This document shows positions 4,462 through 9,090 of a DNA stretch of 54,854 bases, one piece after another. Under the pieces are notes generated by a model, which searched no databases, was not told the DNA's origin, and saw nothing but the letters and a program-made list of their open reading frames with translations. Source of the stretch: Patescibacteria group bacterium (lineage in GTDB: Bacteria; Patescibacteriota; Microgenomatia; UBA1406; GWC2-37-13); the NCBI GenBank assembly GCA_023381015.1, contig JAMCTE010000017.1, positions 1 to 54,854 of the forward strand, in the 5' to 3' direction. Numbering within the stretch: the stretch's first letter is position 1; each line of letters begins with the position of its first letter. The position numbers and the translations under genes were made by a program.

Positions 4462-6401
4462 TGGATAACACTAATAAAAAAGGACAGATAAAAAAAGAAT
4501 CTTTACCAGGCGGCCCAATGAATCGTGGCGGATTTGGAGCGATGGGTCAACCAGTCAGCAAAGCCAAGGATTTCGGAGGAACTCTTAAAAGGCTCATGGG
4601 ATATTTTTGGCCGGAAAAGTACCTTTTATTCACTATAATCGGTGCGGCAGTAATCGGAACCATATTCAACATCGTTGGGCCAAAAATTTTGGGATTGGCG
4701 ACGACAAAACTTTTTGACAATTTGATTGCTAGTTTCATAGTCCAGGTCAGAAACGCGCAGGTTAAACAGGCTTTGCTTGCCAACCCATCATTGTCGTTAC
4801 AACTTTCTCCGGTGCCTGGGGTTGAGTTTGGGTATATCGGCCGGATCGCCATCATCCTTCTAGTACTCTATATTATTAGCGCAATTTTTTCATTCATCCA
4901 GCAGTATTTGATGGTGGGGTTGGCGCAAAGAACTATCTATAAAATGAGGAAACAGGTAGACGAGAAACTGTCGCGTTTGCCCCTCAAATATTTTGACGGT
5001 CGTACCCACGGCGAAATCCTAAGCCGCGCCGTCAACGACATGGACAACATCAGTTCTACCCTTCAGCAAAGTGTTTCCCAGCTGATAACCTCGGTTGTCA
5101 GTATTTTGGGCGTTTTGGTGATGATGCTATCGATCAGTTTGATTTTGACGATCATCGTTCTTTTAACCTTGCCCCTGAGTATTTTCGTGGTGACGATCAT
5201 CGCCGGTCGCTCCCAAGACTTTTTCCGGAGGCAACAAAAATCTTTGGGCGACTTGAACGGTCACGTTGAAGAGATGTACAGCGGTCATAAGATAGTCAAA
5301 GCTTTCGGTCACGAAGAAAAAGCTATTGCCCAATTCGATGTCTTCAACGAGAGCCTGTACGACGCCGGTTGGAAAGCCCAATTCGTTTCGGGAATCATTA
5401 TGCCTCTCATGAGATTTGTCGGCAATCTGGGTTATGCCTTGGTGGCAGTCGTCGGCGGACTTTTGGCGACGCAAAATTCCATATCTCTGGGTGACGTTCA
5501 GGCTTTCATCCAGTATTCGTCTCAGTTTACTTTTCCGATCACCCAACTGGCCAACATCGCCAACATAATCCAATCAGCCATAGCGTCGGCCGAGCGGGTT
5601 TTTGAACTTTTGGATGAAGAAGAACAAGTGCCTGAAGTCAAGCATCCGGTCATCATCAAGGACGAAAAAGGTGCCGTCGATTTTGAGCACGTTAAATTTG
5701 GCTACAGTCCTGACAAAATTCTCATGCATGATATGAATTTTTATGCCAAGCCCGGACAGATGGTTGCCATCGTTGGTCCAACCGGAGCCGGCAAAACTAC
5801 CCTTGTCAACCTTTTGATGCGGTTTTATGAAGTCCAGGGCGGAAAGATCCTGGTCGACCAGGTAGACATAACAAAGATGAAGCGGTCAAGTCTTCGCAGG
5901 ATGTTCGGTATGGTTCTTCAGGATACTTGGCTCTTTCACGGTACCATCAGAGACAATATCGCCTACGGGCGGGAAGACGCCAGCGAAGAACAGATTGTCA
6001 AGGCCGCCGACGCCGCCTATGCCGATCATTTCATCAGGACATTGCCTGATGGTTATGGCACCGTTTTGAACGAGGAAGCGACTAATATTTCTCAAGGACA
6101 AAAGCAATTGCTGACGATTGCCCGCGCTTTTTTGGCTGATCCGGAAATTCTTATTTTGGATGAGGCGACTTCGAGCGTCGATACGAGGACGGAACAATTG
6201 ATCCAAAAAGCGATGGCCAATGTTATGAAGGGCAGAACAAACTTTGTCATCGCCCACCGGTTGTCGACGATCCGCGATGCCGACCTGATTTTGGTAATGA
6301 ATCACGGCACGATTATCGAAAAGGGTACCCACAAGAGTCTGCTGGCTAAAAATGGTTTTTACGCCGATCTCTACAACAGCCAGTTCCGCGGGCGAGTCTG
6401 A
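4461..6401 (+). CDS. Heterodimeric ABC exporter, subunit with catalytic Glu
   Basis: 646 residues from the ATG at 4461, which overlaps the previous stop (TAATG); an in-frame start at 4395 would run into the upstream gene and gives an implausible N-terminus. A Gly/Met-rich tail of about 30 residues precedes six membrane helices. Walker A GPTGAGKTT (about 438), Walker B with catalytic Glu (ILILDEATSSVD, about 564) and the switch His (IAHRLST, about 597) are intact, but the signature is degenerate (ISQGQ for LSGGQ, about 542). Paired with the preceding subunit this makes one consensus and one degenerate ATP site, as in LmrCD, BmrCD and TM287/288. Confidence 0.93.
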   Translation: MDNTNKKGQIKKESLPGGPMNRGGFGAMGQPVSKAKDFGGTLKRLMGYFWPEKYLLFTIIGAAVIGTIFNIVGPKILGLATTKLFDNLIASFIVQVRNAQVKQALLANPSLSLQLSPVPGVEFGYIGRIAIILLVLYIISAIFSFIQQYLMVGLAQRTIYKMRKQVDEKLSRLPLKYFDGRTHGEILSRAVNDMDNISSTLQQSVSQLITSVVSILGVLVMMLSISLILTIIVLLTLPLSIFVVTIIAGRSQDFFRRQQKSLGDLNGHVEEMYSGHKIVKAFGHEEKAIAQFDVFNESLYDAGWKAQFVSGIIMPLMRFVGNLGYALVAVVGGLLATQNSISLGDVQAFIQYSSQFTFPITQLANIANIIQSAIASAERVFELLDEEEQVPEVKHPVIIKDEKGAVDFEHVKFGYSPDKILMHDMNFYAKPGQMVAIVGPTGAGKTTLVNLLMRFYEVQGGKILVDQVDITKMKRSSLRRMFGMVLQDTWLFHGTIRDNIAYGREDASEEQIVKAADAAYADHFIRTLPDGYGTVLNEEATNISQGQKQLLTIARAFLADPEILILDEATSSVDTRTEQLIQKAMANVMKGRTNFVIAHRLSTIRDADLILVMNHGTIIEKGTHKSLLAKNGFYADLYNSQFRGRV

Positions 6402-6429
6402 TTGAATCTATAAATGTTATATATATAAT
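6402..6429 (+). promoter_or_regulatory. Promoter of the P-type ATPase
   Basis: TTGAAT (6402-6407), 16-bp spacer, TATAAT (6424-6429). Transcription would begin near 6436, giving a leader of about 117 nt. Confidence 0.65.
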
Positions 6430-6435
6430 AATTAA

Positions 6436-6552
6436 TAGGGTCTCAGTCAGTCCGGAAAACGGACAGAGAGTTTGGTTTCTTCAAAGACAGGTTAATTCAA
6501 AGAGACTATTTGCACTTAATAGTTAAGGTTGCAGATGGTCTTTTATTAACCG
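6436..6552 (+). promoter_or_regulatory. Structured mRNA leader of the P-type ATPase, candidate riboswitch
   Basis: Two folded modules are visible. Module 1: UCUC (6441-6444) with GAGA (6466-6469) enclosing the hairpin GUCCG-GAAAA-CGGAC (6450-6464). Module 2: GGUUAAU (6490-6496) with AUUAACC (6545-6551), then AAAGA (6499-6503) with UCUUU (6539-6543), then ACUAUU (6505-6510) with AAUAGU (6518-6523), leaving an unpaired 15-nt stretch UAAGGUUGCAGAUGG (6524-6538). The last stem ends one base before the ATG and no ribosome binding site is free of it. It does not match the M-box, yybP-ykoY or NiCo consensus that I know. Function is inference. Confidence 0.5.
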
Positions 6553-9090
6553 ATGGAAATTCAATATGAGGGGTTATCGGATCAGGAGGCGATAGAAAGT
6601 CTTAATAAGGACGGCTACAATGAACTGCCTTCCCAAAAAAAGCCGAGCGTTTTTGTGACTTTTTTTAATGTAATTCGCGAGCCGATGCTCTTACTTCTTT
6701 TAGGAAGCGGCACGATATATCTTTTTCTTGGCGAAGTCAGGGATGCTTTACTGCTTCTAACTTTTGTTTTTGTCGTCGTCGGGATTACCTTTTACCAAGA
6801 AAGAAAGACGGAGAAAGCTCTTGATGCCCTGAAAAATCTTTCCAGTCCGAGGGCTTTGGTGATCAGAAACGGCGAGCAAAAATCGATCTACAGCCGAGAA
6901 TTGGTAAAAAACGACATCATCGTTTTACGCGAAGGCGATCGGGTGCCGGCCGACGCGGTGATTTTATCGGTGACTAATTTACTCGTCGACGAGTCGCTTT
7001 TGACCGGAGAATCTTTGTCGGTCCGGAAAAGCGTCTGGGACGGTAAAGAAAAATCTGTCCGGCCGGGAGGAGAGGATCTGCCGTTTATCTATTCCGGCAC
7101 CATGGTCACCCAGGGTCGCGCCGTCGCCCGGGTTACTTCGACAGGAATCAATACCGAGATTGGCAAAATTGGCAAATCTCTACAAACGATCAAAGAGGAG
7201 GATACCCTCTTAAAAAAGGAGACCGCCAAGATCGTCAAGGATTTTTCCATTATCGGCTTAATATTATGTTTGATCGTTTTCTCCGTCTATTTCTTGGTGA
7301 GAGGGGGATTCGTCAAGGGTTTGTTGGCCGGTATTACTTTGGGGATGGCGATGTTGCCCGAAGAGTTTCCCGTAGTTTTATTGGTATTTTTGACTTTGGG
7401 AGCTTGGCGGATGTCGAAAAGAAAGGTGTTGACCAGAAAGACGGCGGCCATCGAAACCCTGGGAGCCGCCACAGTTTTGTGCGTCGATAAAACCGGCACG
7501 CTTACTTTAAATCAGATGCGGTTGGACGGCTTAATGGTCAATAATCAATATCTTGATTTTCAAGACGGTGCGGAAAAATTGCCCGAATCCTATCATGCTC
7601 TTTGCGAATATGCTTATTTGGCGAGTCAGAAAATCCCTTTTGATCCGATAGAAAAAGGAATCAAACAAAAAACAGAACAGTATTTAATTGACACCGAACA
7701 CATTCATCCCAACTGGCAGTTGATCCGAGAATATCCTTTATCAAGAGAACTTTTGGCCTTGTCTCATGTCTGGCAGTCTCCTGACAAGCGGGAGTTTGTC
7801 ATCGCTGCCAAAGGTGCGCCAGAAGCAATTGCCGACCTTTGCCACTTGGACAAAAAACAGAAACGAATAATGATGGGCAATATTGAATTTATGTCCAAAA
7901 AAGGCCTCAGGATTTTGGGAGTGGCAAAAGCTTTGTTCGACAAATCTAATTTGCCTAAGATTCAGCACGACTATGATTTTGAATTTGTCGGTTTAATAGG
8001 TTTTACCGACCCGGTTCGTCCGACAGTACCGAAATCAATCCAGGAATGTTATGATGCCGGCGTCAGAGTCATCATGATCACCGGAGACTATCCGGGAACG
8101 GCCCAGTATATTGCCGGTCAAATCGGTTTGAAGAATCCAGGTAAGTTTATTACCGGCGCAGAACTTCAAGAAATCGACCAAATTGATCTTAGAAAGAGAA
8201 TCAAAAATATCAATGTTTTTGCCAGAGTCATTCCTGAGCAAAAATTGTCTATAGTCAACGCCCTCAAAGCCAACGGTGAAATCGTCGCCATGACCGGCGA
8301 CGGCGTTAACGATGCGCCGGCTTTACAGGCGGCTCACATCGGAATTGCCATGGGTGAGCGCGGGACCGACGTCGCCAGGGAAGCGGCCGATTTGGTATTG
8401 TTGAACGATGACTTTTCTTCGATCGTCAGCGCCATCCGCTTGGGGAGGAGGATCTTTGACAACCTAAAAAAAGCAATCGCCTTCATTCTATCGGTGCACA
8501 TGCCGATTGCTGGTATGTCGCTTTTTCCGGTGCTTTTCGGATTGCCGGTCGTCCTCATGCCTGCCCATATCGCTTTCCTGGAGTTGATCATCGATCCGGC
8601 TTGTTCGGTTGTATTTGAGTCAGAAAAAGAAGAAACCAACATCATGAAGCGGCCACCCCGGGAGCTAAAACAGCCGTTGATCAACAAAAAAATTTTGATC
8701 TTAAGTTTTTTGCAAGGTTTGAGCATTTTGGCCATCGTTTTGGTTGTGTTTCTTTTTTCTTTGCACTTCGGATTAGGAGAAAATGGTGCCAGAACGCTTT
8801 CTTTTGTTACCATTGTCTTTGGCAACCTATTTTTGATCGTTACCAATCTTTCCCACACCGATCACTTTATCAATATTTTGAAGAGCAAGAACAAGTCTCT
8901 CTACTGGGTTTTGGGGGGAGCGTTTGTTTTCTTGGTCCTAATTCTGAATTTACCCTTTCTGCGCAACGTCTTCTATTTTTCATCGATTAGTCCTTTTGAG
9001 TTTTTTATGTCTTTTACCGTCGCTGCGGTTAGCTTGAGTTGGTTTGAAATATATAAGAAAGTCAACAACAACAAAACTAACATTCTGTAA
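6553..9090 (+). CDS. P-type cation-transporting ATPase (P2-like)
   Basis: 845 residues with the complete P-type order: actuator loop TGES (about 157), phosphorylation loop DKTGTLT (about 311), nucleotide domain, hinge TGDGVNDAP (about 580) and ten predicted membrane helices with a cation-ATPase N-terminal motif (GLSDQEAIESLNKDGYNELP). The ion-binding helices differ from SERCA: M4 reads MLPEEFPVVLL where Ca pumps have PEGLP, and M6 reads LIIDPACSVVFE. So group P2 is clear but the transported ion is not; Ca2+ or another cation is possible. It has its own promoter and a folded leader, unlike its neighbours. Confidence 0.9.
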   Translation: MEIQYEGLSDQEAIESLNKDGYNELPSQKKPSVFVTFFNVIREPMLLLLLGSGTIYLFLGEVRDALLLLTFVFVVVGITFYQERKTEKALDALKNLSSPRALVIRNGEQKSIYSRELVKNDIIVLREGDRVPADAVILSVTNLLVDESLLTGESLSVRKSVWDGKEKSVRPGGEDLPFIYSGTMVTQGRAVARVTSTGINTEIGKIGKSLQTIKEEDTLLKKETAKIVKDFSIIGLILCLIVFSVYFLVRGGFVKGLLAGITLGMAMLPEEFPVVLLVFLTLGAWRMSKRKVLTRKTAAIETLGAATVLCVDKTGTLTLNQMRLDGLMVNNQYLDFQDGAEKLPESYHALCEYAYLASQKIPFDPIEKGIKQKTEQYLIDTEHIHPNWQLIREYPLSRELLALSHVWQSPDKREFVIAAKGAPEAIADLCHLDKKQKRIMMGNIEFMSKKGLRILGVAKALFDKSNLPKIQHDYDFEFVGLIGFTDPVRPTVPKSIQECYDAGVRVIMITGDYPGTAQYIAGQIGLKNPGKFITGAELQEIDQIDLRKRIKNINVFARVIPEQKLSIVNALKANGEIVAMTGDGVNDAPALQAAHIGIAMGERGTDVAREAADLVLLNDDFSSIVSAIRLGRRIFDNLKKAIAFILSVHMPIAGMSLFPVLFGLPVVLMPAHIAFLELIIDPACSVVFESEKEETNIMKRPPRELKQPLINKKILILSFLQGLSILAIVLVVFLFSLHFGLGENGARTLSFVTIVFGNLFLIVTNLSHTDHFINILKSKNKSLYWVLGGAFVFLVLILNLPFLRNVFYFSSISPFEFFMSFTVAAVSLSWFEIYKKVNNNKTNIL

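Follow-up and report, generated by a model that had tools for sequence, protein, structure and literature searches.

Among bacterial leaders that sense metal ions, the NiCo riboswitch (czcD, RF02683) acts by metal-dependent antitermination, its closing stem competing with an intrinsic terminator and its metal-bound form allowing read-through (PMC7917058). Its ligand is Co2+/Ni2+, and Fe2+ has also been proposed (PMC9294342, citing Xu and Cotruvo 2020). The yybP-ykoY Mn2+ riboswitch, which controls Mn exporters, forms an antitermination structure on Mn2+ or frees the ribosome site (PMC9294342), and the M-box Mg2+, Na+-I (DUF1646) and nhaA-I Li+ riboswitches are likewise ion-sensing leaders of transporter genes. 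A comparable architecture is seen in the LicT/BglG ribonucleic antiterminators, small imperfect hairpins that overlap the 5' arm of a terminator but depend on a protein. In the literature that we searched, we met no account of natural riboswitches from Patescibacteria. Here we set beside these systems a leader from a Patescibacteria group bacterium (contig JAMCTE010000017.1 of assembly GCA_023381015.1), lying in the window, by which we mean the whole analysed stretch of 54,854 nucleotides.

The gene downstream of this leader codes for a P-type cation ATPase, as a prior sequence-only reading of the window had recognized. The protein is closest in sequence to Ca2+ pumps of the LMCA1/SPCA/SERCA kind and does not reach the curated cut-off of any specific NCBIfam transporter model. 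An alignment of the metal site shows the same residues in all 104 rows of the clade, in which some genes are represented by more than one locus: M4 has PEE, M5 a His, and M6 a Glu and an Asp. This E/H/E/D site is also seen in the covered part of two additional partial rows, whereas N/N/D predominates among the aligned Ca-type and other paralogues. The combination of a His with three acidic residues suggests, as judged from sequence, a borderline transition metal as the substrate. The clade with the PEE/His/Glu/Asp site fits no curated substrate-specific NCBIfam model, and its substrate is apparently uncharacterized.

Orthologues of this pump are repeatedly preceded by NiCo riboswitches or relatives thereof. 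Rfam NiCo riboswitches lie directly before the orthologue in the elusimicrobial loci L085 (4851-4928) and L089 (3881-3976), and NiCo matches below the cut-off precede it in the Omnitrophota loci L076 (4474-4542; 34.2 bits) and L066 (2383-2449; 22.9 bits). The NiCo boxes CAGG...CCGGGC...GGGACU are also found upstream of the orthologue at L090, L093, L096, L100, L108, L111, L125 and L128 (at a distance of 211-357 nt in the last three, with another ATG intervening in L125 and L128), and in the Microgenomatia at L073/L175 (L073:4821-4888) and L174 (1361-1428), which belong to a different family from that of the window. As several of these short NiCo-like leaders fall under the Rfam cut-off, RF02683 seems to miss a compact subgroup. 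Given the presence of NiCo or NiCo-like leaders before this clade in Elusimicrobia, Omnitrophota, Spirochaetes-type and Microgenomatia loci, this pump clade recurrently stands under metal-riboswitch control, with another RNA occupying that place in the window's family; the logic of antitermination (PMC7917058) is hence already known for this kind of gene. These NiCo leaders inform us about the pump, not about the new RNA. Two further RNA elements were seen at these loci: an nhaA-I (Li+ class) riboswitch at L066:1863-1912, which precedes the NiCo-like leader by about 475 nt and the ATPase by about 750 nt, small ORFs lying in between, and a sub-threshold T-box leader match (50 bits versus 93) on the minus strand of a Patescibacteria contig at L073:8793-9043.

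In the window, the stop codon of an upstream ABC-transporter gene ends at 6401, the promoter box starts directly after it, and a leader of about 117 nt runs up to the ATG of the ATPase at 6553. Its elements are as follows:

6402 to 6429, forward strand: promoter-like TTGAAT-N16-TATAAT, matching 10 of 12 consensus positions
6439 to 6444, forward strand: GGUCUC, 5' strand of the putative antiterminator helix P1, at or near the RNA 5' end; complementary to 6502-6507, with complementarity kept in both relatives
6446 to 6448, forward strand: the invariant GUC of CAGUC, 5' strand of the putative helix P2
6450 to 6464, forward strand: GUCCG-GAAAA-CGGAC hairpin, a variable insert
6480 to 6490, forward strand: conserved UUCAAAGACAG, with GAC at 6486-6488 as the 3' strand of P2
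6496 to 6507, forward strand: conserved box UUCAAA plus the shared switching strand GAGACU, which is the 3' strand of P1 and the first half of the terminator 5' arm
6499 to 6544, forward strand: terminator hairpin AAAGAGACUAUUUGCA...UGCAGAUGGUCUUUU with a U-rich tail
6490 to 6551, forward strand: hairpin extension GGUUAAU (6490-6496)/AUUAACC (6545-6551), reaching to one base before the ATG; window only
6553 to 9090, forward strand: P-type cation ATPase of 845 aa, PEEFP clade, with the invariant M4 Glu, M5 His, and M6 Glu and Asp

The promoter and the folded leader had both been proposed in the sequence-only reading, and both are borne out: the segment 6434-6560 folds at -40.1 kcal/mol as against -23.6 +/- 3.1 for shuffled sequences (z -5.4, with 0 of 200 shuffles as low), and the leaders of two relatives introduced below give z-scores of -6.3 and -5.0. 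The predicted fold in the window is a single long hairpin, GGUUAAU-UCA-AAGAGACUAUUUGCA...UGCAGAUGGUCUUUU-AUUAACC, wherein UGCAGAUGGUCUUUU (6530-6544) pairs with AAAGAGACUAUUUGCA (6499-6514) and, together with the closing stem, makes a continuous hairpin of about 25 bp. This closing stem does seal the 3' module one base before the ATG, as that reading held. The 15-nt core that it took to be unpaired, UAAGGUUGCAGAUGG, is mostly base-paired, being the 3' arm of the terminator hairpin, and its internal fold model was therefore wrong; it also overlooked the terminator and the complementarity of the 5' GGUCUC (6439-6444) to GAGACU (6502-6507). The U-tract of the window is broken up (UCUUUUAUUAA).

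A search of 144 related genomes recovered full-length or partial ATPase orthologues, which are 63-74% identical in family members and 47-51% identical in remoter members of the class. The same leader precedes the orthologue in G005 of the same genus (L033; ATPase 70% identical) and in G045 of the same family (L035; 67%); the refuting case named in the sequence-only reading, absence of such a leader from close relatives, thus did not arise. All three leaders contain the motif G[GA]UCUC-A-GUC...UUCAAAGACAG-N5/6-UUCAAAGAG[AG][CU][CU] followed by the terminator, with UUCAAAAAAGACAG replacing UUCAAAGACAG in G005. Their common order from 5' to 3' is a -10-like box, 8-11 nt, G[GA]UCUCAGUC, a variable hairpin (a different one in G045 and none in G005), UUCAAAGACAG/UUCAAAAAAGACAG, 5-6 nt, UUCAAAGAG[AG][CU][CU]AUUUGCA, a variable loop, GCAG[AG]UGGUCU[CU]UU, a U-run and the ATG. 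The long hairpin is followed by U7 in G005 and U6 in G045, 9-27 nt separate these tails from the ATG, and the start-proximal extension is absent in both. Local alignments between the leaders score 56-68, as against shuffled means of 18 (sd 3, maximum 34). The 170-190 nt upstream of the leaders show no similarity among the three loci, and their upstream genes are unlike, coding for an ABC transporter, a CNNM/CBS protein and a Crp-type regulator. As the leaders are alike while these flanks and genes differ, the leader evidently travels with the pump. G045 has a second P-type ATPase (L065:226-2544), whose PEMLP motif is MgtA-like, about 2.3 kb upstream of the leader.

In G047 (L034), the contig bearing the ATPase orthologue (G047:C18) starts at ATTCAAAGAGAU, inside the expected leader, and this locus may be a cut fourth member with another, shorter terminator (AAACC-GUUUU-GGUUUUU). 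No such leader is found upstream of the close orthologue of G016, or before the orthologues of G038, G029, G057, G085 and G108, all those of Omnitrophota and Elusimicrobia, and those at other loci. We built a covariance model, R1, from the three leaders and searched overlapping samples of 72 family, 374 class and 380 phylum genomes. Since the variable insert caused MAFFT to misplace the 5' box in full-length leaders, an alignment with the insert cut out was used; R1 aligns the window's own insert in place of the true 5' box. A pattern search of the 72 family genomes returned only the three members (zero with the reversed-pattern control), R1 yielded nothing beyond them in the 374 class and 380 phylum genomes, and an exact-pattern scan of viral contigs gave no match. 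The leader is thus very rare, being present in 3 of 72 family genomes. The next R1 matches, in G153, G346, G438 and G595, were put down to chance, as they are situated within genes or simple terminators or have no 5' domain; that in G153 (L148:1501-1590; 38 bits) is an intergenic terminator with GACAG-N7-CAAAGAG before an unrelated ORF, has no 5' box and is probably fortuitous. The ATPase tree places the window with G005 and G047 (support 1.00), and G016 and G045 attach to this group (0.97); the simplest history would be one gain followed by loss in G016.

By sequence, the hairpin with its U7 or U6 tail is an intrinsic terminator in G005 and G045. Resembling a stretch of the terminator 3' arm, the 5' hexamer can pair with the strand that this arm pairs with: P1 is GGUCUC/GAGACU in the window, GGUCUC/GAGGCC in G005 and GAUCUC/GAGAUC in G045, and the shared strand (AGACU/AGGCC/AGAUC) varies yet pairs with both partners. 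Across the three leaders, P1 and P2 are paired in 27 of 27 cells, versus 22-52% when slid; P1 shows one double compensatory change (G-C to A-U) and two one-sided ones. The terminator helix is paired in 95.8% of cells, with five one-sided changes and no double one, and several of the one-sided stem changes are of the G-U type. A covariation shuffle test, comprising three rows only, gave 181 of 500 and was not significant; the covariation across these three sequences is suggestive but falls short of proof.

Folding calculations tell the two structures apart along the course of transcription. For each of the three leaders, the 5' domain taken by itself is predicted to fold into P1; P2 (GUC/GAC), with 3 bp, does not figure in the minimum-free-energy fold of the window or G045 domain. 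The full RNA favours the terminator, with a cost of 7-12 kcal/mol for forcing P1 in the complete leaders; hence, P1 would need stabilizing. In the nascent RNA of the window and G045, P1 forms before the terminator 3' arm is made and the terminator thereafter. The same holds for P1 in G005 if transcription starts at GGG, and a start 6 nt further 5' results in a different 5' hairpin and no P1. Computation thus finds an intrinsic terminator, with a weaker U-tract in the window, alongside a mutually exclusive antiterminator helix, in a structured 5' leader kept before orthologous genes as in riboswitches.

Hence, we posit, with a probability of about 0.6 for the explanation as a whole, that the leader is an attenuation riboswitch that turns the pump on, with the exported divalent transition metal as its ligand. 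That it is a cis-acting, transcription-attenuating RNA of the riboswitch type is highly probable; that it is a divalent transition-metal ON switch is the likeliest option, which we favour with some reserve. Transcription would start at about the GGG at 6438, and P1 (GGUCUC/GAGACU) would close a small domain made up of the first ~70 nt, which holds the inner 3-bp P2 and, on the domain's 3' side, two UUCAAA segments. With no ligand bound, the downstream UGCAGAUGGUC would capture the 3' strand of P1, and the resulting terminator would stop transcription just before the pump gene; a ligand stabilizing the P1 domain would prevent the terminator from closing, and the ATPase would be made. On this folding model, the layout is that of an ON switch controlled by termination. 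We infer ligand binding, the ON direction, the identity of the ligand and the export activity, the most likely ligand being the exported cation itself: Fe2+, Co2+, Ni2+ or Mn2+. A metal ion as ligand is plausible by analogy, from the pump's invariant His/Glu/Glu/Asp site and the NiCo riboswitches before orthologues. As the same two-fold RNA precedes the same pump in two relatives, it looks like an undescribed, probably metal-sensing switch.

The mismatch to known ion-sensing RNAs noted by the earlier reader extends to all of Rfam 15, none of whose covariance models reaches its gathering score on the leader, with only chance matches at relaxed E-values. There is no covariance match to M-box, DUF1646 (Na+-I) or nhaA-I/II, or to yybP-ykoY at E up to 10, and neither Rfam 15 nor the literature searched describes this leader type. 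A highly diverged NiCo member would share the gene context and antitermination logic of the orthologues' leaders. Nevertheless, we consider this hardly credible: NiCo has no covariance match in the window or in the 72 family genomes (a set in which no positive control matched), a model of 12 NiCo-like leaders of these ATPases, run with filters off, recovered both positives (48 and 36 bits) and none of the three new leaders, the NiCo core boxes CAGG, CCGGGC, GCAG and GGGACU are absent, and the 45-nt domain of G005 is too small for a four-way junction. An ordinary terminator of the upstream operon, or a constitutive structure with fortuitous P1 complementarity, is very improbable too; chance terminators do attain 31-38 bits with R1 (G153, G595), but here a promoter of its own precedes the structure, conservation is as strong in the 5' domain as in the terminator, the leader accompanies the ATPase through changes of upstream gene, and the hexamer complementarity survives sequence changes.

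The main rival has the leader respond to a protein acting in trans, either a LicT/BglG-like one or some other regulator that binds RNA, rather than directly to an ion. P1 overlaps the terminator 5' arm as in the ribonucleic antiterminators and UUCAAAGAC/UUCAAAGAG resembles a repeated protein-binding box; on the other hand, the CAT_RBD domain by which LicT/BglG proteins bind RNA was not found in the window's genome (84% complete; the control matched 4 of 14 genomes), and P-ATPase orthologues elsewhere carry a metal riboswitch at the same place, making this option unlikely. Leader-peptide attenuation was rejected on inspection, with no start codon and reading frame common to the three leaders. 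Ion- or temperature-dependent translational control, with the 25-bp hairpin hiding the start region as the earlier reader supposed or acting as an RNA thermometer, is yet less likely. The window stem does reach to one base before the ATG, no Shine-Dalgarno sequence is visible and, with the U-tract interrupted, termination there may be weak, or occlusion of the start site may take its place, such that translation may be blocked as well, or instead. However, both relatives lack the extension and have U6-U7 tails 9-27 nt from the ATG in its stead, and a simple thermometer would have no use for a complementary 5' domain. Thus, the earlier proposal of a regulatory leader before the pump survives as a conserved leader, its anatomy and start-hiding mechanism giving way to terminator/antiterminator switching.

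Riboswitch classes that newly come to light are expected to be rare (PMC10043782). The new RNA works like a riboswitch attenuator outside NiCo and all Rfam families, and is a candidate for such a class. We give even odds to its being a new, very rare and compact class (core of ~45 nt in G005), confined to one Patescibacteria family, that would sense a divalent transition metal through a fold bearing no relation to NiCo or yybP-ykoY while taking the position that NiCo holds upstream of this pump elsewhere. Being short, the RNA lends itself to tests in a purified system even though its host has not been cultured. A second RNA solution to the control of one metal pump would let the ways in which unrelated RNAs may recognize the same ion be compared directly, and the new leader could help assign a substrate to an uncharacterized P-type ATPase clade present in many phyla.
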